A stretch of 64,000 nt of DNA from Polyangiaceae bacterium (GCA_020849655.1 JADLFU010000011.1:1-64000), one strand, 5' to 3'. Shown: positions 2,633-16,988, counted from the first letter of the stretch. Program-made: numbers and translations. Notes: generated by a model not told the origin, from the letters alone.

Positions 2633-5363
<2,731 letters not shown>

Positions 5364-5443
5364 CACGCGCGGCGGGCGAGGTCGGGTCGGCCTTGGTGGT
5401 TGGTCCTACCTAACCGCGCGCTCGCCGGGCTCGATCAGCATGC

Positions 5444-7315
5444 TCAGTCGATGGGCGGCGGCACGTAGATCTTCTTCACGTCGGCGCCGCCCGCGAACGC
5501 GTACGATCCCGCGTTGCCGTAGCCGTACGCGACGATGCCGAACGCGCGGTCGCCGGTCAGGCGGTGCACGCCTGCCTTCACCTTGCAGCGGCGTGACTCG
5601 TACGTCTTGCCGCCGAGCGTGCCGGCCTGATTGACCTCACAGATCGAGGTCTCGGTGCCGTCCATCACGACCTTGCTGCCCGCCTCCGCGGAGATGACGA
5701 CCCAGCTCTCCGTCCAGCCGCTCGGGGTCAGGATCACGTACTCGCTCCGCGCCTGCTCGGCGGGGGGGAACACCGTGAGCGACGGATCGCCCTTGTAGGC
5801 GCCGCCGAGGTACTGGTTGCTGACGAGGATCTGCCCGACGTAGAGCGGCTCGTCGGACTCCATCACGAAGTCGGTCTGCGTCCAGGTCGTCAGCACCTGC
5901 CCGGGGTTGATCGTGAAGAAGTCGTACGGCGCGGGGAGGTTCGTCTTGACGACCGCCTTCGCCGCGGCGCCGACGAACCGGATGATGTCGGGCTCGATGT
6001 AGCCGCCCGTCGAGCGGACCGGGCTGCGCGTGACGACGTAGCGCTTCCCGAGCGACTCCATCGGCATCATCTGGTCCTCGAGGTGGTCGAGGCAGCAGGT
6101 GTCGCCGTCCTTCCAGTCGGGGGCCTTCGGCGCGTCCTTCGGCACGCCGGCGCCCGTGCTCTCGACGCCGCTCCAGACCGCGACGGGCTGGTCCGCCTCG
6201 ACCGCGGTCCCGGAGAGATCGGTGGTCGCGGGGTTCGTCGCCTCCTGGAGGGTCGCGTCGTCGGTCTCCAGGTTGAGCACGTCGAACGGCCCGAGCGTCG
6301 CCTCGATGAGGCCGCCCGGGTTGGTCTTCGCGATGGGCGGGTTGCCCTTGATGCGCCACGCGGGCTTCACGCGCACCTTGGTGTTCGGGCGCGTGCCGAC
6401 GACGGTCACGTACGCGCGGTCGAGGATCTTCGGGAGGCCGGGGAGCTCGATGAGCGCGGGGTGGCCGGCGGGCCAGCCGACGGCGCGGTAGACGAGCCCG
6501 AGCGACGTCGTCGGCAGCAGCAGCGACGCGTCGTTCGAGAAGGCGTTCTCGAACACGTTGAACTGGTACGCGACGATGGGCGCGGTCGACGTGATGCGGA
6601 ACGCGCGCGACGAGAGGCACGTGCCGGGCGACGCGTAGTCGTTGGGCTTCACGCCGCAGTCGAGCTCGCGCGTCGGGAGCTTCAGCTGGACGAGATCGTT
6701 CGCGGCGATGGTCCCGGTCGCGACGGTCTTCGTCATGATGGGCTGGCCGACGGGCGCCTCGTTGATCTCGATGGTGTAGTTCGCCTTCTCGTCGCCGGCG
6801 TTCGACAGCACGACGCCCCACGGCATGCTCGCGGGATCGTTGCCGCCTCCGTCCTGCTGATCGAGATCGACCGCCCAGAACTCGCACCCCACGTTCGACG
6901 GCTGGTCGCCGATCGCCTCGCACGCGCTCTTGCACTTCCCCTCGCTGCACACCGAGCCGGCGCTGCAGGTCTCCTGGAGCTCGCCCGGCGTCGCGTCGGC
7001 GCCGCACGCGTGCACCTCGTTGCCGACGCAGGTGGTCGTGCCCGGCGAGCAGACCGCGCAGCCGACGCCCTCGACGCACGCCGCCTCGCAGTTGATGGGC
7101 TCGCCGGGCGTGCCGTCCTCGTTGCAGGGCTTGTACGAGGTGCCGAAGCACGTCCCGCACGTCTTGCCGCTCGTGCCGCCCGCGCCGTTGCCGGACCCCG
7201 CCGCGCCCGGGCCTCCGTCGCTGTCGATGTCCGCGCCGCCGGCGCCACCGCACGCCAGCGCCACCGTGAGCGCCGCCGCTGCGCCTGCCAACAGAAGCCA
7301 ACCTCGAGTCTTCAT
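5444..7315 (-). CDS. IgGFc-binding-like lipoprotein with Cys-rich N-terminus
   Basis: A 623-residue exported protein. The start at ATG 7315 gives a signal peptide (MKTRGWLLLAGAAAALTVALAC) with a lipobox-like Cys at 22. A Gly/Ala/Asp linker follows, then a Cys-rich region (about residues 45-130) with repeated C-x(3-8)-C spacing, then about 480 residues resembling the IgGFc-binding N-terminal domain family of Myxococcota secreted proteins (FWAVDLDQQ, WGVVLSNAGDEKANYTIEIN, and a late ADQPVAVWSG). The protein is probably on the outer-membrane surface and may have an adhesive role; the family name does not imply antibody binding here. The longer start at 7360 would add 15 non-hydrophobic residues and spoil the signal peptide. 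Confidence 0.83.
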   Translation of the reverse strand: MKTRGWLLLAGAAAALTVALACGGAGGADIDSDGGPGAAGSGNGAGGTSGKTCGTCFGTSYKPCNEDGTPGEPINCEAACVEGVGCAVCSPGTTTCVGNEVHACGADATPGELQETCSAGSVCSEGKCKSACEAIGDQPSNVGCEFWAVDLDQQDGGGNDPASMPWGVVLSNAGDEKANYTIEINEAPVGQPIMTKTVATGTIAANDLVQLKLPTRELDCGVKPNDYASPGTCLSSRAFRITSTAPIVAYQFNVFENAFSNDASLLLPTTSLGLVYRAVGWPAGHPALIELPGLPKILDRAYVTVVGTRPNTKVRVKPAWRIKGNPPIAKTNPGGLIEATLGPFDVLNLETDDATLQEATNPATTDLSGTAVEADQPVAVWSGVESTGAGVPKDAPKAPDWKDGDTCCLDHLEDQMMPMESLGKRYVVTRSPVRSTGGYIEPDIIRFVGAAAKAVVKTNLPAPYDFFTINPGQVLTTWTQTDFVMESDEPLYVGQILVSNQYLGGAYKGDPSLTVFPPAEQARSEYVILTPSGWTESWVVISAEAGSKVVMDGTETSICEVNQAGTLGGKTYESRRCKVKAGVHRLTGDRAFGIVAYGYGNAGSYAFAGGADVKKIYVPPPID

Positions 7316-7434
7316 GGCGCGCACTCTAGCGCCGCCGACGGGCGCGGGTAGCGCTGCCATCCTCGCGCCAAACCTGCCGCACCGCTGGAACCACGTGCGA
7401 TTGCGCCCGTGTCATCCGCGGCGTTCCGCGCTAC

Positions 7435-7439
7435 AGGAG
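7435..7439 (+). promoter_or_regulatory. Shine-Dalgarno site of the DUF962 gene
   Basis: AGGAG lies seven bases before ATG 7447 and supports that start for the first gene of the cassette. Confidence 0.6.
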
Positions 7440-7446
7440 CGCGACG

Positions 7447-8067
7447 ATGAGCGAGAGATTCGAGAGCTTCGAGGAGTTCTGGCCGTTCTACGTCAAGGAG
7501 CACGCCGACAGGACCAACCGCCGGCTGCACTTCGTCGGGACGTCGCTCGCGCTCGCGTGCCTCGCGGGGGCGGCGCTGACGCGGCGAACCTGGCTGCTGC
7601 TCGCCGCGCCGGTCGCGGGCTATGGCTTCGCGTGGGCGGGGCACTACCTCGTGCAGAAGAACCGCCCCGCGACGTTCACGCACCCGCTGTGGTCGCTGCG
7701 CGGCGACCTCGTGATGTGGTCGAAGATGCTCGACGGCACGATGGACGCCGAGGTCGAGCGCGTGCTGCGCGAGGAGGCCGTCGTCGCGCGCGCCGAGGCC
7801 GACGCGGCGGGCGGCGTCGTCGATCCCGTCGTGAACTTATCCGCGGCATGGAGGAGACGATCTCCGCCGTCCGGGCGCTCGTCGTCAGCGAGCTCGATCT
7901 GTCGCACCTCCGCCCGGAGGACCTCGACCCGGACGCCTCGCTCTTCGGAGAAGGGGGCCTCGGCCTCGACTCGCTCGACGCGCTCCAGCTGGCCGTGGGG
8001 ATCGAGGAGCGCTTCGGCGTGGCGGTGCCGGAGGGCCCCGCGGCGCGGCCGATCTTCGCGAGCGTGA
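7447..8067 (+). CDS. DUF962 / Mpo1-like membrane protein with doubtful C-terminal tail
   Basis: The first about 115 residues match the DUF962 (Mpo1/YGL010w-like) family: FEEFWPFYVKEHADRTNRRLHFVGTS, two hydrophobic segments, and GHYLVQKNRPATFTHPLWSL. Yeast Mpo1 is an Fe(II)-dependent dioxygenase in fatty-acid alpha-oxidation, and the conserved His residues are present here. The open frame continues to 8067, running 220 bp into the acyl carrier protein gene. That tail (from about residue 134) is a low-complexity Arg/Ser string typical of an out-of-frame reading. Either the true stop was lost or a frameshift occurred near 7830; alternatively the overlap is real. It is the likely first gene of the cassette with ACP and the ketosynthases. 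Confidence 0.75.
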   Translation: MSERFESFEEFWPFYVKEHADRTNRRLHFVGTSLALACLAGAALTRRTWLLLAAPVAGYGFAWAGHYLVQKNRPATFTHPLWSLRGDLVMWSKMLDGTMDAEVERVLREEAVVARAEADAAGGVVDPVVNLSAAWRRRSPPSGRSSSASSICRTSARRTSTRTPRSSEKGASASTRSTRSSWPWGSRSASAWRCRRAPRRGRSSRA

Positions 8068-8102
8068 GGTCGCTCGCCGCGTACATCGTCGAGCAGCGTT
8101 GA
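7848..8102 (+). CDS. Acyl carrier protein
   Basis: An 84-residue protein of normal ACP length. The phosphopantetheine site is GLGLDSLDALQ with Ser42, and the surrounding helix pattern (EDLDPDASLFGEGG before it, FASVRSLAAYIVEQ at the end) is typical. It carries acyl intermediates for the ketosynthases that follow. Its TGA overlaps the TTG start of the next gene, indicating translational coupling. It is unlikely to be the housekeeping AcpP, because no fab genes surround it. The adjacent dual ketosynthases suggest a dedicated role in a polyene or special lipid. Confidence 0.92.
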   Translation: MEETISAVRALVVSELDLSHLRPEDLDPDASLFGEGGLGLDSLDALQLAVGIEERFGVAVPEGPAARPIFASVRSLAAYIVEQR

Positions 8103-10114
8103 GCGCGCCCGCGGCGGTCCTCGGCGTGGGGCTCGCGACCGCGCTCGGGCGCGGCGCCGACCGCACGCTGTGGCGGCTCCACGCGGGCGTCCGCGCCTTC
8201 GCGCCCTCGCGGCTGATGGCGCCGTACTTTCCCGAGTCGCCGGTTTGCCTTGCGACCTGGCTGCGCGCTCCTGCGCCGTCGCGCTCGGCGGCGCTCGCCG
8301 AGCACGCCGCGCGCGAGGCGCTCGGGGACGCGGGCGTGGATCCACGCGCCGACGCCGTCGATCTGGTCGTCGGCGCGTCGCTCGGCGGGATGTACGAGTC
8401 GGAGCTCGAGCTCGCCGCGTGGTTCGTCGGCGAGGCGGACGCGCCCGACGACGCGAGGCTCGCGTGCCACGGCGTCCACGCGGTCACCGAGCACCTCGTC
8501 TCTGTGCTCGGGCCGTTCGCGCGGGCGACGACGATCTCGTCGGCGTGCTCGAGCGGCGCCGTCGCGCTCGGCCTCGCGATGGGCCGCGTCGCGCGGGGCG
8601 ACGCGCGGTACGTGCTCGCCGGAGGGGTCGACGCGCTCGCGAGGATCACGACGCTCGGGTTCCACGCCCTCGGCGCCGTCGATCCGCTCGGCGCGAGGCC
8701 CTTCGACGCCGCGCGGGCCGGCCTCGGGCTGGGGGAGGGCGCAGGCTTCGTGCTGCTCGGCGCGCGCGGTGCCCGCCGCCGCGTGTTTCTGGCGGGGTTC
8801 GCCGCGAGGAGCGAGTCGTTCCACGCGACGCAGCCCGAGCCGTCGGGCAGGCTCATCGACGAGCTCGACGCCGCGGCGCTCGCGGGCGCCGGGCTCCGCG
8901 CGGGAGACGTCGGCTACGTCTCGGCGCACGGCACCGGCACGCTGCAGAACGACGCGATCGAGGCCGCCGCCATCCGCCGGGTGTTCGGACCGCTCGTGAA
9001 GGTGTCGTCGCAGAAGGGCGCGCTCGGGCACACGCTCGCGGCCTGCGGCGCGGTCGAGGCCGTCGTCGCGGCGGACGTCGTCGCGACCGGCCGGCTCCCG
9101 CCGGCGCTCGCCACGTCGCCGATGGACGGCGTCACGCTCGTCGGGGCAGGGGAGACCGCCGACGTGCGCGCGGCGGTGAGCCACTCCTTCGGGTTCGGGG
9201 GGACAGGCGCGGTGCTGGTCCTGTCGCGCGAGCCCGGCGTGTCGGTCCCAGAGGGGCGCGCGGAGCTGAGCGTCACCGCGGCCGTCGCGGCGCTCCCGGA
9301 GGGCCTCCTCGCCGGAGAGTCGCTCGCCCACGCGTTCCATCACGGAGAGATCCGCCCCGCGCTCCTGCGCGGCAGGCCGAGCCCGCTCCGGCGGGTGGAC
9401 CCTGCGAGCGCGCTCGCGGTGGCGCTGGCGTCAGAGCTCGTCGCGATCCGTCGGCCGCCGGCCGCGCGCACCGCTGTCGTCGTCGCGTCTGCCTATGGCG
9501 TCCCGGACGCGGCGTGCGCGTTCGTCGCGCGCGCACGGGAGCGCGGGCCATCGCGCGTGTCGCCGATGGATTTCCCGCACCTCGTGCCGTCCGCGCCGGC
9601 GTCGAACGTCTCCATCGCGCTCGGCCTCGGAGGGCCCGCGCTGACGGTGATAGACCCGTTCGCGGGCGTCTGCTCGGCGCTCTCGCTCGCGTCCGAGCTG
9701 GTCGCGCTCGACCTGGCCGACGCGGTGGTGGTGCTGGTGGTCGAGCCCGAGAGCCGCGTGTGCGAGGAGCTGCTGACCCCGCGTGTCTCGGGGTTCGATC
9801 GGCGAGGGTGGGGCGGCGCGGCGCTGCTCGTCGAGCGCGAGGGGGCCGCGGGGCTGCGCGTCGCCACGGTGGGCCGCTCGCAGCTCACCGCGCTGTCGCC
9901 GCGGTCGCCGCGCCACGCGGGGTGGGCGCAGGGCGGCGGGCTCCCAGGATGGACGAGCCCCGCGTCGCTGTCGGCGTGCGTCGGCGCGCACGAGGCGAGC
10001 GGCGGCGTCGCGCTCGCGCTGCTCACGCAGGCGCTGCTCGACGGCGCCCTCGACGAGGCGTGCGTGGAGGCGCGCGTGGCGGGTGTCCACGGTCGGGTGG
10101 TGCTGTCACGATGA
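8099..10114 (+). CDS. Beta-ketoacyl synthase fused to a degenerate second KS-like domain
   Basis: A 671-residue protein with a TTG start at 8099 inside the ACP stop. Residues 1-380 form a complete FabF-type ketosynthase: nucleophile Cys150 in ISSACSSG, His277 in SAHGTGTLQND, Lys306 and His311 in QKGALGHT, and a C-terminal SHSFGFGGTGA. It would catalyse decarboxylative condensation on the neighbouring ACP. Residues 420-671 resemble the N-terminal half of a second ketosynthase (VVVASAYG, then NVSIALGLGGPALTVIDPF) in which the catalytic Cys appears replaced, as in chain-length factors or KS-like N-terminal (PF13723-type) proteins of aryl polyene clusters. The usual FabF is about 410 residues, so the extra half is unusual. 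Its 3' end overlaps the next gene as ATGA. Confidence 0.88.
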   Translation: MSAPAAVLGVGLATALGRGADRTLWRLHAGVRAFAPSRLMAPYFPESPVCLATWLRAPAPSRSAALAEHAAREALGDAGVDPRADAVDLVVGASLGGMYESELELAAWFVGEADAPDDARLACHGVHAVTEHLVSVLGPFARATTISSACSSGAVALGLAMGRVARGDARYVLAGGVDALARITTLGFHALGAVDPLGARPFDAARAGLGLGEGAGFVLLGARGARRRVFLAGFAARSESFHATQPEPSGRLIDELDAAALAGAGLRAGDVGYVSAHGTGTLQNDAIEAAAIRRVFGPLVKVSSQKGALGHTLAACGAVEAVVAADVVATGRLPPALATSPMDGVTLVGAGETADVRAAVSHSFGFGGTGAVLVLSREPGVSVPEGRAELSVTAAVAALPEGLLAGESLAHAFHHGEIRPALLRGRPSPLRRVDPASALAVALASELVAIRRPPAARTAVVVASAYGVPDAACAFVARARERGPSRVSPMDFPHLVPSAPASNVSIALGLGGPALTVIDPFAGVCSALSLASELVALDLADAVVVLVVEPESRVCEELLTPRVSGFDRRGWGGAALLVEREGAAGLRVATVGRSQLTALSPRSPRHAGWAQGGGLPGWTSPASLSACVGAHEASGGVALALLTQALLDGALDEACVEARVAGVHGRVVLSR

Positions 10115-10779
10115 CGGCGCGCGCTCTCTGCGGCGTCGCGCTCGCGTCCGCCGCGTGCGCGCCTGCTGTCACGGCGACTCCCACCTACCCCACGAGGCGC
10201 GCGCGCGCCGACGCCGTCCTCGCGCTCGGCGATGCTTCCGCTCGCCTCGAGGCGGGGCGCGCGCGCACGCTGCACGTCTCGGCGAGGGTGCGGGCCGCGG
10301 GTCAGGTGCACGAGGGGCGAGGGATCGTCGCGGTGCGTCCGCCGACCGATGTGAGGATGGTGTTGATCGGGCCGTCCGGGTTGACGGCCCTCGATCTGTG
10401 GGTCTCGGGCGCCCGCGACAGGCTCGCTGTCCCCGCGCTCGCGCGGATCGAGCGCGACGCGCCGCCGCGCCCGGGGAGGCCTCAAAACTTTCTGAGGTGG
10501 TGGCTGCTCGCGCCGCTCTCGGGCAGGGTGCTCTGGGTCGACGACGCGGGGCGCGTGACGCTCCGCGCGCGGGACGGCGCGACGGTGGAGGTCACGCTCC
10601 GCGGCGGGCGGGTGCGCGCCACGCGGCGTACGCGGACCGACGTCGAGCGCGTCGAAGCGGACCTCGCCGGCTGCGGAGAGGCGACCTGGCGCAGCGAGGT
10701 GGCTGGCGTCGAGGTGCGGATCGTGTGCGAGTCGGTCTCGGGTCCGGCGCCCGATCGCGCCTTCGAGGCGCCGCCGTGA
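10111..10779 (+). CDS. LolB/DUF3261-like lipoprotein between two ketosynthases
   Basis: A 222-residue exported protein. ATG 10111 overlaps the previous stop. A short signal (MTARALCGVALASAAC) gives a lipobox-like Cys16. The mature part has beta-strand-rich segments, HVSARVRAAGQVHEGRG, DVRMVLIGPSGLTALDLWVSG and LSGRVLWVDDAGRVTL, the general pattern of LolA/LolB and outer-membrane lipoproteins. Aryl polyene clusters carry comparable LolA/DUF3261 proteins beside their ketosynthases, where they are thought to help move the lipid product to the outer membrane. The same role is inferred here from position; the family match is by eye only. Confidence 0.72.
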   Translation: MTARALCGVALASAACAPAVTATPTYPTRRARADAVLALGDASARLEAGRARTLHVSARVRAAGQVHEGRGIVAVRPPTDVRMVLIGPSGLTALDLWVSGARDRLAVPALARIERDAPPRPGRPQNFLRWWLLAPLSGRVLWVDDAGRVTLRARDGATVEVTLRGGRVRATRRTRTDVERVEADLAGCGEATWRSEVAGVEVRIVCESVSGPAPDRAFEAPP

Positions 10780-12539
10780 GGCCGGCGGCGATCCTCGCGT
10801 TCGGCGCGGTCTCCGCGTCCGGGACGGGGCTCCACGCGACGGGCGCGCGCGGCCTGGGGGCCCGCGCGTCGACGCGGGTGCGCGAGGACGCGGCGCTCGC
10901 CGAGGCCGGGGTGAGGCGCCCGGCGTGCGCCCGTGTGAGCGACGGCGTCGCGCCGGTCGCGTCCGATCGTCGCGCGGACGCCGTGCTCACCCTGGCCCTC
11001 GACGCGTGCGTGGCCGCGCTCGACGAGCGCGCGCCGGGCTGGCGTTCGCTCACGATCGGGCTCGCGCTCGGCACGTCCTCCGGCGCGATGCAGGGCGCGT
11101 CGCGCGCGTACGGCGCCATCTCGGCCGGACGCGCTCCCGACAGGCAGGACGCCGAGGATCTCGCCTACGCGGCGCCCTTCCTGCGCGCGCGCGCGCGGCT
11201 CGGCGTGCCCCTCGCGAGGTCGGTGAGCGTGCTCGGCGCGTGCGCGTCGTCGACGCTGGCGATCGGCCTCGGCGCGCTGTGGCTCGACGCGGGCGAGTGC
11301 GACGTGGTGCTCGCGGGCGGGTACGACGTGGTGACGCCCTTCGTCGCCGCGGGGTTCGCGTCGCTCGGCGCCGTGACGCGGTCGGCGCCCGGGCCGTTTC
11401 GTCAGGGGCGCGACGGGCTCGCGCTCGGCGAGGGCGCGGCGATCCTGGCCCTGGTCCGCGACCGCGCGGACGCGCTCGCGTTCGTCACGGGCTTCGGCGC
11501 CGCGTCGGACGCCGGACACCTCACGGCGCCGGATCGCGACGGCCGCGGCCTCGTCCGCGCGTGCCGGGCGGCGCTCTCGGCGGCGGCGCTCGAGCCGGCC
11601 GATGTGGGGCTCGTCTCGGCGCACGGCACCGCGACCGTGTTCAACGACGCGGCCGAGGCCCGCGCGATCCAGTCGATCCTGGGTGAGGCGTCGCCGCTCG
11701 CGCACGCGCTGAAGGGAGAACTCGGACACACGCTCGGCGCGGCGGGCGCGCTCGAGACCCTCGCGGCGGCGGCTTCGCTCGCGCGCGGGGTCGCACAGCC
11801 GAGCGCGGGGCAGGGGCCGGTCGATCCCGACGCCGCGCTCCGTGTGCTCGACGTCGGCGAGTCGTGCGACGCGGCGCACGCGCTGAAGACATCGGTCGCG
11901 TTCGGCGGCCTGAACGCCGCGCTCACCGTGTCGCGTTTGCCGCGCGAAGGGGCCTCGGAGGTGCGCCGCGTGGCGCAGGTCGCGCTCGCGTCCGTGTCGC
12001 TGGCGGAGGCCGTCGCGCCGCCCGGCGTGCCGCCGGAGCGCGCGGCGCGCTGGGACGATCTCACCCGCCTCGTCGTCGCCGCGGCGAGCCGGCTCGCGTC
12101 GTCCGCGGGGCTCTCGCGGGGAGACGACGTCGCCGTGATCGTCGGCCACGTCGCGGCCACGGTGACGACGAACACCGAGGTCGCGCGCCGCGCGGCGGAG
12201 GGGCGCCCCGAGCCGCGGAGGTTTCCGTTCACGTCGCCGAACGCGTGCGCGGGAGAGGCGTCGAGCGTCCTCGGCCTGGTCGGCGCAGCGTTCGCGGTCG
12301 GCGGCGCGCCCGGCCTCGGCGGGCAGGCCGAAGAGACGGCGCGCGACCTCGTGGCGCACGGTCTCGCGCGGGCGGCCCTCGCGATCGAGGTCGACGACGA
12401 GTCTCCCACGACGTCGGCGCTCCTCGCTGCGCACGGGGCGCCCATGCGCTCAGCGTCCGCGCGCGGCGTGCTCCTGGTCGCCGACCAGGGCCAGGATCTT
12501 CTTCACGGCGCGCGCGACGGACTCGTCTCCGAGCGCTGA
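10776..12539 (+). CDS. Second beta-ketoacyl synthase with C-terminal KS-like domain
   Basis: A 587-residue protein with GTG 10776 overlapping the lipoprotein stop as GTGA. Residues 1-385 are a ketosynthase: Cys156 in LGACASST, His283 in SAHGTATVFND, Lys313 and His318 in KGELGHT, and SVAFGGLNAAL near the end. So both condensing sites of this cassette appear intact, unlike a KS/chain-length-factor pair in which one Cys is lost. Residues about 395-587 again look like part of a second, degenerate ketosynthase fold (VAVIVGHVAATVTTN, FPFTSPNACAGEASSVLGL). The 3' end overlaps the convergent Nudix-fusion gene by 90 bp. No ketoreductase, dehydratase or acyltransferase follows. Confidence 0.87.
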   Translation: MRPAAILAFGAVSASGTGLHATGARGLGARASTRVREDAALAEAGVRRPACARVSDGVAPVASDRRADAVLTLALDACVAALDERAPGWRSLTIGLALGTSSGAMQGASRAYGAISAGRAPDRQDAEDLAYAAPFLRARARLGVPLARSVSVLGACASSTLAIGLGALWLDAGECDVVLAGGYDVVTPFVAAGFASLGAVTRSAPGPFRQGRDGLALGEGAAILALVRDRADALAFVTGFGAASDAGHLTAPDRDGRGLVRACRAALSAAALEPADVGLVSAHGTATVFNDAAEARAIQSILGEASPLAHALKGELGHTLGAAGALETLAAAASLARGVAQPSAGQGPVDPDAALRVLDVGESCDAAHALKTSVAFGGLNAALTVSRLPREGASEVRRVAQVALASVSLAEAVAPPGVPPERAARWDDLTRLVVAAASRLASSAGLSRGDDVAVIVGHVAATVTTNTEVARRAAEGRPEPRRFPFTSPNACAGEASSVLGLVGAAFAVGGAPGLGGQAEETARDLVAHGLARAALAIEVDDESPTTSALLAAHGAPMRSASARGVLLVADQGQDLLHGARDGLVSER

Positions 12540-15458
12540 GGCCTCGTCGAGCGCCACCCACGCGACGGCCGCCGCCTCCTCCTCCTGCGCGCGCAGCGGC
12601 GCGCCGCGCGGGGCGACGAACAGGTAGCGGACATCCAGGTGCTCGTGCGCCGGCTCCGTCGCGCGGGCCGGGATGACGTGCACGTCGAGATCGAACGGCC
12701 GCGGCGCCAGCGGGTGCAGCGAGAGATCGGCGAGGCCGGTCTCCTCTCGCGCCTCGCGCAGCGCGACCGCGAGCGGATCGATCTCGTCGGGCTCGCCGTG
12801 CCCGCCGGGCTGCAGCCAGCGCTGCAGCTTCCGGTGGAACAGCAGCAAGAGGCGCCGTGCGTCGGCGTCGAGCACGAACGCCGAGCCCGTCAGGTGTCCG
12901 TCCCACCGATCGCGGCGGAACAGCGGGCCCCCGCCCTCGACGTGCGCGAGGATCCGCGCCCGCGCGCGCGCCTCGTGCTCATCCGCGGGGACGAGCTGCC
13001 TCAGGCTCTCCAGCAGCGTCGACACGCGGGCGCGTAACGGGCCGACCTGGGGCACCTTGCCGGCCGCGAGATCGGAGAGGAACCTCGTCACGTCGGCCTG
13101 CGCGAGCGGATCGTCGAACGCCACGAAGTGCCCGTCCTTGCCGGAGGCGGGGGTGTAGCGGCGCAGCGCGAGCGTGAACTTCCCCTGCTTGAACTCGCGG
13201 TTGCCCGAGAGCGGCGCGGCCTTCGCGGGGGCGCCGTTCAGCGTCGCCGCGTCGCCCGTCGCGGCAGGCGACGAGGCGAGCTCGAGCGCCGCGGCGATCG
13301 CGTACGTCTCCTCGGTCGGCGGCGGGCTGTAGGTGTCGGCGAAGCCGTACACCTGGAACACGTGGTGCGGCCCGGTCTCGGCCGGCGCGCGATCGCTCAT
13401 CGCGGCCGCGTGGTTCAGCGGGTCGGCCGGATCGATGAAGGACTGCAGCAGCGACAGCACCGGGTGGTACTGCTCGTGGTTCAGCACGCCCGGCTTCGAC
13501 GGATTCGGGTCCTGCAGCGCGAACGGCAGGGCGCCCGCGATGTTCACGGGGCTCTTCTTCGTGAGCAAGGCGTCGATCAGGCTCGCGCCCTGCCCGCTGA
13601 AGACCACGCCCTTGATGTCCGCCGTGTAGGGCACGCCGAGCGCGCCCTCGGTCGCGCCCTGGGAGTGGCCCCAGTACGCGATCTTGGTCTTGTCGATCGT
13701 GACGCCGGGCACGCCGAGCTCGCCCTGCGCGAGCAGCCTCGCGAGCGAGACCTGGTCGACGCCTCCCTGCAGCGGGTTGCCTCGGGCGGCCTTGGGGTTC
13801 GTGAAGTTGAAGAACAGGTTGTTGGGCGACTCGGTCGACGCGCCGCGCCTCGGCCCGTGCTCCACCTGATCGATGCCGAGCACGGCCATCGGCTGCGCGG
13901 CGGTCGCGAGGCGCTTCGCGACGCCCTCGTTCACGTGGCTGCGGAAGCTCCCGCCCGTGCCGTGCGCGTAGATGACGACCGGGAGCCCGCCCGCAGGAGC
14001 CGCGCCCTTCGGCACGGTGAGGGACGCGCAGACCTGCTCGTCGCGCTGCTTCGTGGGCTGCAGATCGCCGCCGTCGGCCGGCTGGAGGTACGGGGGCGTG
14101 CCGGCCTGGAAGATCGGCAGCGTGATGAGCCCGTGGTACTCGTCGAACTCTGGCGCATCGCCGCTGCAGCCGCGGTCGCCCGTCGCGTCCGGGCACGGAG
14201 ATGCGCCGGCGCCGCACTTCACCCAGCTGCCGGCCGCCGGGGGAGGGAGGGCCTGCGCCGCCGCCGCGACCGTCGACGCCGGCTTCGTGTGCGACGCGAT
14301 CGTGAAGACCGTCGCGCCGATGAAGCTGCTCGGATCCTTGCCGTTCTTCTTGATCCACGCGCGGAAGGGCGCGTACGCCGCGTGCGCCGCCGCGAGCGCG
14401 CTGTCACCGGGCGCGCCGTCGGACATCAGCGCGGCGAAGTCGGCGTCGCGGCCGAACGGCGTGCCGTCGCTCGTGAGGGCCTTGTTCGTCACGTACGCGG
14501 CGTAGGTGTGGCCGGGGAGCATCGGATCGCCGTCGGGCCTGCGGATGCCGAGCCAGTTCTTGCATATGTACTTGCTGCGGTTGCCGTCGAGGAACCACGC
14601 GTACCCGTGCGTGCCGGGCTCCGGATCGACCTCGGTGACGTCGACGAGGCTGACCGTACCGTCGCGGAGCGTGTCGAGGGTCGTGCCGGTGCTGAAGCGG
14701 AAATACACGGTCGAGTAGGCGCCCCAGCCGTCCTCCTGGTTCAGGACGTCGATGTAGCGCTGCACGGGATCGAACCCGAGCAGCTCCGAGCCAGGCGACG
14801 GGTGCCCCGTGTAGTCGGGCTTGCCGTCCTTCTTGCGGGCGTCGTTGGGGAAGGGGAGCCGGAAGAAATCGCCCTCCACGACGCCGCCGCGCGGCACGCG
14901 GAAGTACACGACGGGGCTCGCGTCGTCCTCGCCGCAGTCGGCGCCCTTCCAGGTCGGGATGCCGAAGGGCGGGACGCCCGGCGGGGTCTGCGTGCACAGC
15001 CCGCCGCCGCACGCGAGGCCGCCCGCGCAGTCGCTCGACGTCGTGCACGCGCCGCCCGCGTCCGCCGCGCCCTCGGGCTGGCACTGGGCCGCGAGCCCGA
15101 CGAGCGCGCAGCGCAGGCCGTCCTTGCAGTCGACGTCGCCCTTGCAGCCCTCCCCCTGGGCTGCCGTGCCGCGCGGCTGGCACGTGCGCGTGACGAAATC
15201 GCAGGCGAGCCCGGCCTGGCACTCGCCGTTCGCGACGCACGGCCCGCCCTGCACGGTGACGCGCCCGAACGCGCACGCGCCCGCCTCGCACTTCAGGCCC
15301 GGCCGGCAGGATGAGTCGGCGCTGCACGAGGAGCCGACGGGCCCGCCCGGAGGCGGCTGATCGTCGGAGGTGTGAGACTTGCCGTCGCCGCACCCGGCGA
15401 AAGCGGACGCGGCGAGCAACAGGGAAGACGTGAGCAGGACGAGGCGAAGCGATCGCAT
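12450..15458 (-). CDS. Large lipase-like lipoprotein fused in frame to a Nudix hydrolase
   Basis: One uninterrupted 1002-residue frame from ATG 15458. A signal peptide with lipobox (LAASAFAGC) leads to a Cys-rich region with three or four repeats of the pattern C-x(5)-C-x(2)-G-L-x-C (residues about 40-155). Then comes a large alpha/beta-hydrolase-like region (about 170-800) with VVIYAHGTGGS and the nucleophile elbow WGHSQGA. Residues about 812-1002 form a cytosolic-type Nudix domain with the box G-x5-E-x7-REAREETGL, and GTG 13025 could start it alone (191 residues). An exported lipoprotein joined to a Nudix enzyme makes little cell-biological sense, so a lost stop codon, or translation of the Nudix from 13025, is plausible. 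Starting at 15482 would add eight polar residues. Confidence 0.8.
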   Translation of the reverse strand: MRSLRLVLLTSSLLLAASAFAGCGDGKSHTSDDQPPPGGPVGSSCSADSSCRPGLKCEAGACAFGRVTVQGGPCVANGECQAGLACDFVTRTCQPRGTAAQGEGCKGDVDCKDGLRCALVGLAAQCQPEGAADAGGACTTSSDCAGGLACGGGLCTQTPPGVPPFGIPTWKGADCGEDDASPVVYFRVPRGGVVEGDFFRLPFPNDARKKDGKPDYTGHPSPGSELLGFDPVQRYIDVLNQEDGWGAYSTVYFRFSTGTTLDTLRDGTVSLVDVTEVDPEPGTHGYAWFLDGNRSKYICKNWLGIRRPDGDPMLPGHTYAAYVTNKALTSDGTPFGRDADFAALMSDGAPGDSALAAAHAAYAPFRAWIKKNGKDPSSFIGATVFTIASHTKPASTVAAAAQALPPPAAGSWVKCGAGASPCPDATGDRGCSGDAPEFDEYHGLITLPIFQAGTPPYLQPADGGDLQPTKQRDEQVCASLTVPKGAAPAGGLPVVIYAHGTGGSFRSHVNEGVAKRLATAAQPMAVLGIDQVEHGPRRGASTESPNNLFFNFTNPKAARGNPLQGGVDQVSLARLLAQGELGVPGVTIDKTKIAYWGHSQGATEGALGVPYTADIKGVVFSGQGASLIDALLTKKSPVNIAGALPFALQDPNPSKPGVLNHEQYHPVLSLLQSFIDPADPLNHAAAMSDRAPAETGPHHVFQVYGFADTYSPPPTEETYAIAAALELASSPAATGDAATLNGAPAKAAPLSGNREFKQGKFTLALRRYTPASGKDGHFVAFDDPLAQADVTRFLSDLAAGKVPQVGPLRARVSTLLESLRQLVPADEHEARARARILAHVEGGGPLFRRDRWDGHLTGSAFVLDADARRLLLLFHRKLQRWLQPGGHGEPDEIDPLAVALREAREETGLADLSLHPLAPRPFDLDVHVIPARATEPAHEHLDVRYLFVAPRGAPLRAQEEEAAAVAWVALDEASALGDESVARAVKKILALVGDQEHAARGR

Positions 15459-15506
15459 GGATGAAGACCCTCCATCGCGCACCGTACCCCAGCCTCGCCC
15501 CCCGCG

Positions 15507-16988
15507 TCACTCGTCGAAGAAGCCCTCCGGGACGGCGCCCGGCTCGAGGTTGTCGAACCTCGTGCAGGACGACGTGAACTTCACGGGCACCTTGCCGGTC
15601 GGCCCGTTGCGCTGCTTCGCCACGATGATCTCGGCGACGCCGCGCTGCTGGGAGTCCTTGTTGTAGTACTCGTCGCGGTAGATGAAGACGATCATGTCGG
15701 CGTCCTGCTCGATGGCGCCCGACTCGCGCAGATCGCTCAGCTGCGGCCGCTTGTTCTTCTCGCTGCGCGTCTCGACGGCGCGGTTCAGCTGGGAGAGCGC
15801 GATGACCGGCACGCGCAGCTCCTTCGCCAGCTGCTTCAGCCCGCGCGAGATCTCGCTGATCTCCTGCTCGCGGCTGTTCACGCCGTCGCGGCCCTTCATC
15901 AGCTGCAGGTAGTCGACGATCACGCACCCGAGCTTCGGGCCCTCCTGGCCCTGCTCGACGGCGCGCGACAGCTCGGCCTGGATGCGCCGCACCTTGCTGC
16001 GCAGATCGAGCACCGTGAGCGCGGCGGTGTCGTCGACCCAGATCGGCAGGCTCCCGAGGAAGCTCGCGGCCTGCGTCAGGCGGCTCCAGTCCTCGCCGAC
16101 CAAGAGGCCCTTGCGCACCTTGCCGACGTCGACGTGCGCCTCGGAGCAGACCATCCTCGTCGCGATCTGCTCCTTCGGCATCTCGAGCGAGAACACCGCG
16201 CAGCCGAACCCTGGGGTCTCCTCGGCGCCCTGACCGTCGTCGTTCTGCACGGTGCCGGGCGCCGCGACGTTGACCGCGATGTTGAGGACGAAGCTCGTCT
16301 TGCCCATGCCGGGGCGCGCCGCGATGATGACGAGATCGCCCTCGTGCAGGCCCGAGGTGAGATCGTCGAGCCCCGCGAAGCCCGTCGGCGTGCCGGTGAT
16401 CCTGCTGCCGCGCTCGGCCGCCTCCGTGAGCTTCTTGAAGGTGACCTTGAGGATCTCCCGGATGGGCGCGACCGTCGACGACTCGGGCGTGCGCGCGATC
16501 TCGTAGATCTCCTGCTCGGCGCCGTCGATGAACGCCTGGACCTCGCCGACGTCGCCGTAGCCCTCCGCCGCGACCTTCTGGCAGGTGCCGATGAGGCGCC
16601 GCACGCGGTACTTCTCGCGGACGATGCGCGCGTACGACTCGAGGTTCGCGACCGACGGCGCGCTGTCGGTGATCTTCGCGATGTACGGGACGCCGCCGAC
16701 CTCCACGAGCCGCTCGCGCGACTTGAGCCACGACGCCACCGTCACCGCGTCGATCGGCTGCCCGGCCTGCGCGAGCGCGATGCACGCGTCGTAGATGCGG
16801 CGGTTCGCGGGCGAGTAGAACTGCTCCGACGACAGCAGCTCCTGCACGCGGTCGAGCGCGTCGCGCTCGAGCAGCACGGCCGAGAGCACCGCGCTCTCGG
16901 CGTCGAGATCGTGAGGGGGCACGCGGCCCTGCGCGGCGGCCGCTTGCACGGGCTCGGGGGGACGACGGTTACGATGCGGCTCCGGCAT
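15507..16988 (-). CDS. dnaB: Replicative DNA helicase DnaB
   Basis: A 493-residue hexameric 5'-3' helicase of the replication fork. The N-terminal primase-binding domain (about 25-130, PHDLDAESAVLSAVL) is followed by a linker and a RecA-like motor with Walker A ARPGMGKTS (about 224-232), H1a FSLEMPKEQI, Walker B CVIVDYLQLM, and the arginine-finger region SGAIEQDADMI. About 15 extra residues, Gly/Asp/Glu-rich, sit between Walker A and FSLEM, longer than in the E. coli enzyme. It is the last gene of rpsF-rpsR-rplI-dnaB but lies 177 bp from rplI, with a hairpin in between. Confidence 0.97.
   Translation of the reverse strand: MPEPHRNRRPPEPVQAAAAQGRVPPHDLDAESAVLSAVLLERDALDRVQELLSSEQFYSPANRRIYDACIALAQAGQPIDAVTVASWLKSRERLVEVGGVPYIAKITDSAPSVANLESYARIVREKYRVRRLIGTCQKVAAEGYGDVGEVQAFIDGAEQEIYEIARTPESSTVAPIREILKVTFKKLTEAAERGSRITGTPTGFAGLDDLTSGLHEGDLVIIAARPGMGKTSFVLNIAVNVAAPGTVQNDDGQGAEETPGFGCAVFSLEMPKEQIATRMVCSEAHVDVGKVRKGLLVGEDWSRLTQAASFLGSLPIWVDDTAALTVLDLRSKVRRIQAELSRAVEQGQEGPKLGCVIVDYLQLMKGRDGVNSREQEISEISRGLKQLAKELRVPVIALSQLNRAVETRSEKNKRPQLSDLRESGAIEQDADMIVFIYRDEYYNKDSQQRGVAEIIVAKQRNGPTGKVPVKFTSSCTRFDNLEPGAVPEGFFDE

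Follow-up and report, generated by a model that had tools for sequence, protein, structure and literature searches.

A compact ACP-ketosynthase-lipoprotein-ketosynthase cassette of the ApeO lineage in Polyangiales

The window analyzed here, a 64,000-nucleotide stretch of DNA from a Polyangiaceae bacterium, contains a coupled four-gene cassette encoding a dedicated acyl carrier protein (ACP), two ketosynthases (KS1 and KS2), and a LolB-like lipoprotein, and both ketosynthases group with ApeO of the aryl polyene systems. We interpret the cassette, with slightly less than even confidence, as a reduced ApeO-lineage synthase that would draw on housekeeping fatty-acid enzymes and pass a lipid on to the outer membrane. 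Few bacterial gene clusters are as widespread as those for aryl polyenes. A pared-down, fused relative with almost no overlap with these clusters, occurring in a group of prolific producers, would show which parts of the machinery are essential, and the cassette points to an uncharacterized envelope lipid or metabolite.

Architecture and recurrence of the cassette

All four genes lie on the plus strand. The first encodes an 84-aa ACP (7848-8102), recognized by PF00550 (2.5e-10) and by the DSL serine in the motif GLGLDSLDAL; its top NCBIfam model is PRK09184, at 66 bits, slightly below the cut-off of 70. KS1 (8099-10114; 671 aa), the lipoprotein (10111-10779; 222 aa), and KS2 (10776-12539; 587 aa) follow. 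The ketosynthases were identified by their ketosynthase Pfam domains, each with an additional half-size KS-like domain, and the lipoprotein by its lipobox and by hhalign comparison with LolB profiles. The original prediction held that the genes are coupled through TTGA, ATGA, and GTGA overlaps, and our reading of the window confirmed this. The same order, ACP-KS1-lipoprotein-KS2, was found in all 39 fetched loci holding the four genes, which span many genera, so that the predicted arrangement recurs in relatives and is beyond chance. Four-base overlaps join KS1 to the lipoprotein in 34 of these loci and the lipoprotein to KS2 in 37.

Among 184 Polyangiales genomes, KS1 orthologues were detected in 72, KS2 orthologues in 71, and both in 65. 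The lipoprotein profile matched 55 of the 184, always together with a KS. When 284 genomes sampled evenly across the phylum were searched, it matched nine, all within the same two families. Searching the genome contigs with KS1 returned distant KSs only. ACP-KS1 and lipoprotein-KS2 form two separate pairs in the second family (L057/L058 and L060/L061). The lipoprotein was not found in 23 of the 78 cassette genomes, some of which are incomplete assemblies, and at three loci from three genera (L062-L064) the ACP, KS1, and KS2 genes stand together with no lipoprotein gene between KS1 and KS2. Transport by the lipoprotein is therefore not universal. One locus of a different makeup (L155 of genome G120, 7797-10131) clusters a crotonase, the ACP, the lipoprotein, and a SnoaL/NTF2-like lipoprotein, with no KS between the ACP and the lipoprotein; KS1 of this genome is located on another contig. 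A literature search, with subscription journals mostly outside its reach, found no paper describing the four-gene unit.

The DUF962 gene placed ahead of the cassette in the original prediction is present as a DUF962/Mpo1-like ORF (7447-8067, plus strand; PF06127, 7e-37), and it is a frequent neighbor, occurring at 16 of the 39 full loci, but it lies outside the coupled unit and is probably not part of the core. In comparison with a sister genome, the ORF overruns the ACP gene by 220 nt, out of frame, because the stop in the sister sequence AACTGA reads AACTTA in the window. This loss of the stop could be a true extension or an assembly error. Crotonase genes neighbor 29 of the 39 full cassettes and are likewise outside the operon.

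The 3' end of KS2 overlaps by 90 nt with a convergent gene, a single 1010-aa ORF (12450-15482, minus strand) that combines a secreted lipoprotein/lipase-like part, as judged by eye, with a NUDIX domain (PF00293). The lipase-like and NUDIX parts are two adjacent genes in the sister genome (L049, 13814-14401 and 14406-16829). A lipoprotein of the A11 family, SnoaL/NTF2-like, about 160 aa long, and marked by a conserved PNTDVED motif (for example, 12599-13087 in L056), often lies directly 3' of KS2. It was dropped as a candidate member of the unit, since it was found in 169 of the 184 Polyangiales genomes; no match was detected in the window's own genome, which is an incomplete assembly.

Ketosynthases, fused domains, and ancestry

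The KS portion spans approximately residues 1-380 in KS1 and 1-388 in KS2, and the half-size KS-like domain approximately residues 385-671 and 390-587, respectively. The active-site residues C150, H277, H311, and K306 of KS1 are invariant among 14 homologues, as are C156, H283, H318, and K313 of KS2 among 13 homologues. The C-terminal halves lack the catalytic triad. Their profiles align with KAS II structures in the PDB over the N-terminal half of the latter, and comparison of the KS1 half with the KS2 half by hhalign (99%) shows that they are related. For KS1, the half matched the ketoacyl-synt N-terminal domain in 14 of 14 members and Ketoacyl-synt_2 (PF13723) in five of the 14. Direct comparison of the two halves with one Polyangiales ApeC gave weak scores of 27% and 52%. 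The ApeC chain length factor is described as roughly half as large as its KS, with a single thiolase fold (PMC8358021), and AmcG is the small partner of AmcF in cispentacin synthesis (PMC10698177). In light of these descriptions, the half-size domains make KS1 and KS2 look, from their sequences, like KS-plus-half-factor units with a layout resembling ApeO with ApeC. At one aryl-polyene-type locus from Polyangiales (L169), an ORF joins a KS and an ApeC-like region. A structure model of KS1, run with three other sequences, reached a pLDDT of 39, too low for use.

AmcG was the best-scoring NCBIfam model for the C-terminal half of KS2, matching all 12 members, although its 34 bits fall short of the cut-off of 80 and the library may favor AmcG because no ApeC model is among the NCBIfam matches. 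AmcF was among the better models for the KSs themselves, with scores of 172 and 155 bits where the cut-off is 325. These scores, along with the lack of KR and DH genes nearby, are consistent with a non-reducing or cyclizing minimal synthase, in which the ACP-bound chain would undergo a single condensation or a small number of them and be closed into a ring, as with AmcF-AmcG, yielding a small cyclic or poly-keto product; the lipoprotein would either handle this product or be incidental. The cispentacin KS-CYF system (AmcF-AmcG with AmcB) is a precedent for this chemistry. It shares with the cassette a KS, a small factor without catalytic motifs, and a dedicated ACP, and fatty-acid synthesis supplies its FabD and FabI (PMC10698177), a reliance on enzymes from elsewhere that the cassette would have in common. 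We consider such a cyclizing synthase unlikely, as the AmcG and AmcF scores fall far below their cut-offs, and AmcG itself exceeded its cut-off in none of 219 genomes of the phylum. Furthermore, the cassette fuses KS and factor, which are separate subunits in the cispentacin system, no AmcH-like starter ligase was recognized beside it, and its two KS-factor units and LolB-like lipoprotein are foreign to that system.

The ancestry of the ketosynthases was examined in a tree of 121 KS domains and in a smaller IQ-TREE analysis with the AU test, with ApeO represented by PDB 7F28 chain B, taken from the alignment, and four Polyangiales ApeO-type sequences. KS1, KS2, and ApeO formed one clade (UFBoot 99 in IQ-TREE), in agreement with the 121-domain tree, and the grouping of KS1/KS2 with FabF was rejected (p-AU 0.0013). 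The comparison with aryl polyene families called for by the original prediction thus places both enzymes in the ApeO lineage. Within the clade, the AU test keeps all three arrangements of KS1, KS2, and ApeO.

For the KS1 family overall, the FabF model outscored PRK09185, the ApeO-type model. The FabF-like scores would fit an ordinary branch of lipid metabolism, in which KS1 and KS2 lengthen fatty acyl chains or produce special ones, such as the long or hydroxylated chains of sphingolipids or other lipids of the envelope, instead of a pigment-like polyketide. The neighboring crotonase and DUF962/Mpo1-like genes both encode fatty-acid-type enzymes, and the lipoprotein-KS2 pair of the second family adjoins uppS and cdsA, as judged by eye. 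However, the KS phylogeny favors ApeO over FabF, and pairing a KS with a factor is a typical arrangement for polyketide-type chain control. Moreover, the neighbors are divergent genes outside the operon, and crotonases are common in these genomes. We therefore rate this lipid-metabolism reading as improbable, to about the same degree as the cyclizing synthase.

Lipoprotein and relation to aryl polyene clusters

The lipoprotein has the lipobox ASAAC-APAV, with no Asp at the +2 position, and showed no Pfam match for the window protein or for 12 members of its family. In hhalign profile comparisons, a set of four LolB sequences scored 62-71% and a set of six scored 89-92%, compared with 26-30% for DUF3261 and at most 20% for eleven control families from the same loci. 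The alignment with LolB, the outer-membrane lipoprotein receptor, contains the shared pattern R..L..P.G.T.L.L followed by PV..LRWWLL. The profile comparison points to a remote resemblance to LolB, and the kinship to LolB-like proteins assumed in the original prediction is accordingly retained, though as a distant one. In contrast with LolB, the cassette lipoprotein scores below the Pfam LolB cut-off and is restricted to cassette-bearing genomes, which indicates that it is not a housekeeping LolB; PF03550 (LolB) had no match in the window's genome. A model from the single window sequence (pLDDT 43) was too poor to judge the fold, and a search of solved structures with the lipoprotein profile yielded nothing beyond weak matches to the BamD signal-peptide region.

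The cassette resembles the aryl polyene systems (ApeA-ApeR; Escherichia coli CFT073, Xenorhabdus doucetiae, and Acinetobacter baumannii) in its ApeO-lineage KS, its putative half-size partner resembling a chain length factor, its PRK09184-like ACP, and the placement of a LolB-like lipoprotein gene beside a KS gene, as in apeN-apeO. It differs in lacking a KR (ApeQ), a DH (ApeI/ApeP), a ligase, an acyltransferase, and a thioesterase, as well as LolA-like and RND exporter genes. In addition, the partner is fused to the KS, twice, the unit holds no ApeR-type KS, and the lipoprotein is not recognized as DUF3261 (ApeN). The absence of KR, DH, and AT genes noted in the original prediction was borne out with profiles each built from two sequences: around the 39 full cassettes, the only match was a weak SDR-type one in L140, located beyond the crotonase, with 109 bits versus more than 450 for the cluster KRs used in the profile. 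No exporter, thioesterase, or ligase gene adjoins the cassette. The prediction would be undermined if all homologues sat in complete aryl polyene or fatty-acid operons; instead, the cassette recurs as a short unit and not all of its homologues belong to such operons.

DUF3261 (PF11659), the aryl polyene lipoprotein family, was detected in 36 of the 184 Polyangiales genomes, not including that of the window. By eye, several of these loci contain exporter, glycosyltransferase, acyltransferase, thioesterase, KR, and KS genes. The cassette is present in just one of the 36, G002 (Fisher test, 7e-9 over the order and 5e-4 within the family; the genomes share ancestry, and the counts are therefore not independent events). 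Matches to the dehydratases ApeI and ApeP were found in 10 and 25 genomes, respectively, and in none of the 78 cassette genomes, including the window's. The reductive steps of the cassette, if any, therefore do not come from recognizable aryl-polyene-type dehydratases encoded elsewhere in these genomes. ApeO-lineage KSs and a PRK09184-type ACP that stand without the remaining aryl polyene genes could also mark a decayed cluster, a relic whose genes for reduction, loading, and export are gone and which makes no product, but this is very improbable given the invariant active sites among divergent members, the order and overlaps kept over many genera, and the retention of both KSs together in 65 genomes.

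Proposed function and possible products

In the chemistry that we infer for a reduced synthase of the ApeO lineage, KS1 and KS2 would each combine an active ketosynthase with an internal partner of half size, similar to ApeC or AmcG, and would lengthen the chain carried by the dedicated ACP through condensation with malonyl-ACP. The two enzymes probably divide the work, for instance into priming and elongation. FabD, FabG, and FabZ of housekeeping fatty-acid synthesis would load the malonyl units and perform any ketoreduction and dehydration, by analogy with the FabD and FabI supplied in cispentacin synthesis. The window's genome encodes an ordinary FabF with an adjoining ACP gene (L193). The LolB-like lipoprotein might then assist in receiving the acyl product, or a lipid bearing it, at the outer membrane or in inserting it there.

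The core of a KS, an inactive partner, and an ACP also recalls the actinobacterial minimal type II PKS (KS-alpha, CLF, and ACP), in which malonyl loading comes from fatty-acid synthesis. The cassette departs from this system in its half-size, fused partner, its two KS units, its lipoprotein, and the different lineage of its KSs.

A bolder reading is that twin, self-paired KS-factor enzymes make a distinct, undescribed class of envelope lipid or pigment, which these Polyangiales would have in place of aryl polyenes and which a LolB-like lipoprotein of its own would deliver. We regard this as possible but rather doubtful.

The cassette may bear on the 'arylpolyene' calls made in Polyangiales, and antiSMASH may already flag such loci in this way. 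Two 'arylpolyene' clusters have been reported in Minicystis rosea (PMC8436480). Genome G140 had no match to DUF3261, ApeI, or ApeP. A different, fuller type II set was observed at L065 (G036, 7857-15712) and L068 (G015, 3878-12051), where genes for a KS, an ACP, a glycine-cleavage-T-like protein (PF01571), a KR, a DH, a lipoprotein of an unknown family, and an AT lie beside a membrane protein gene. G015 carries both this fuller set and the cassette.
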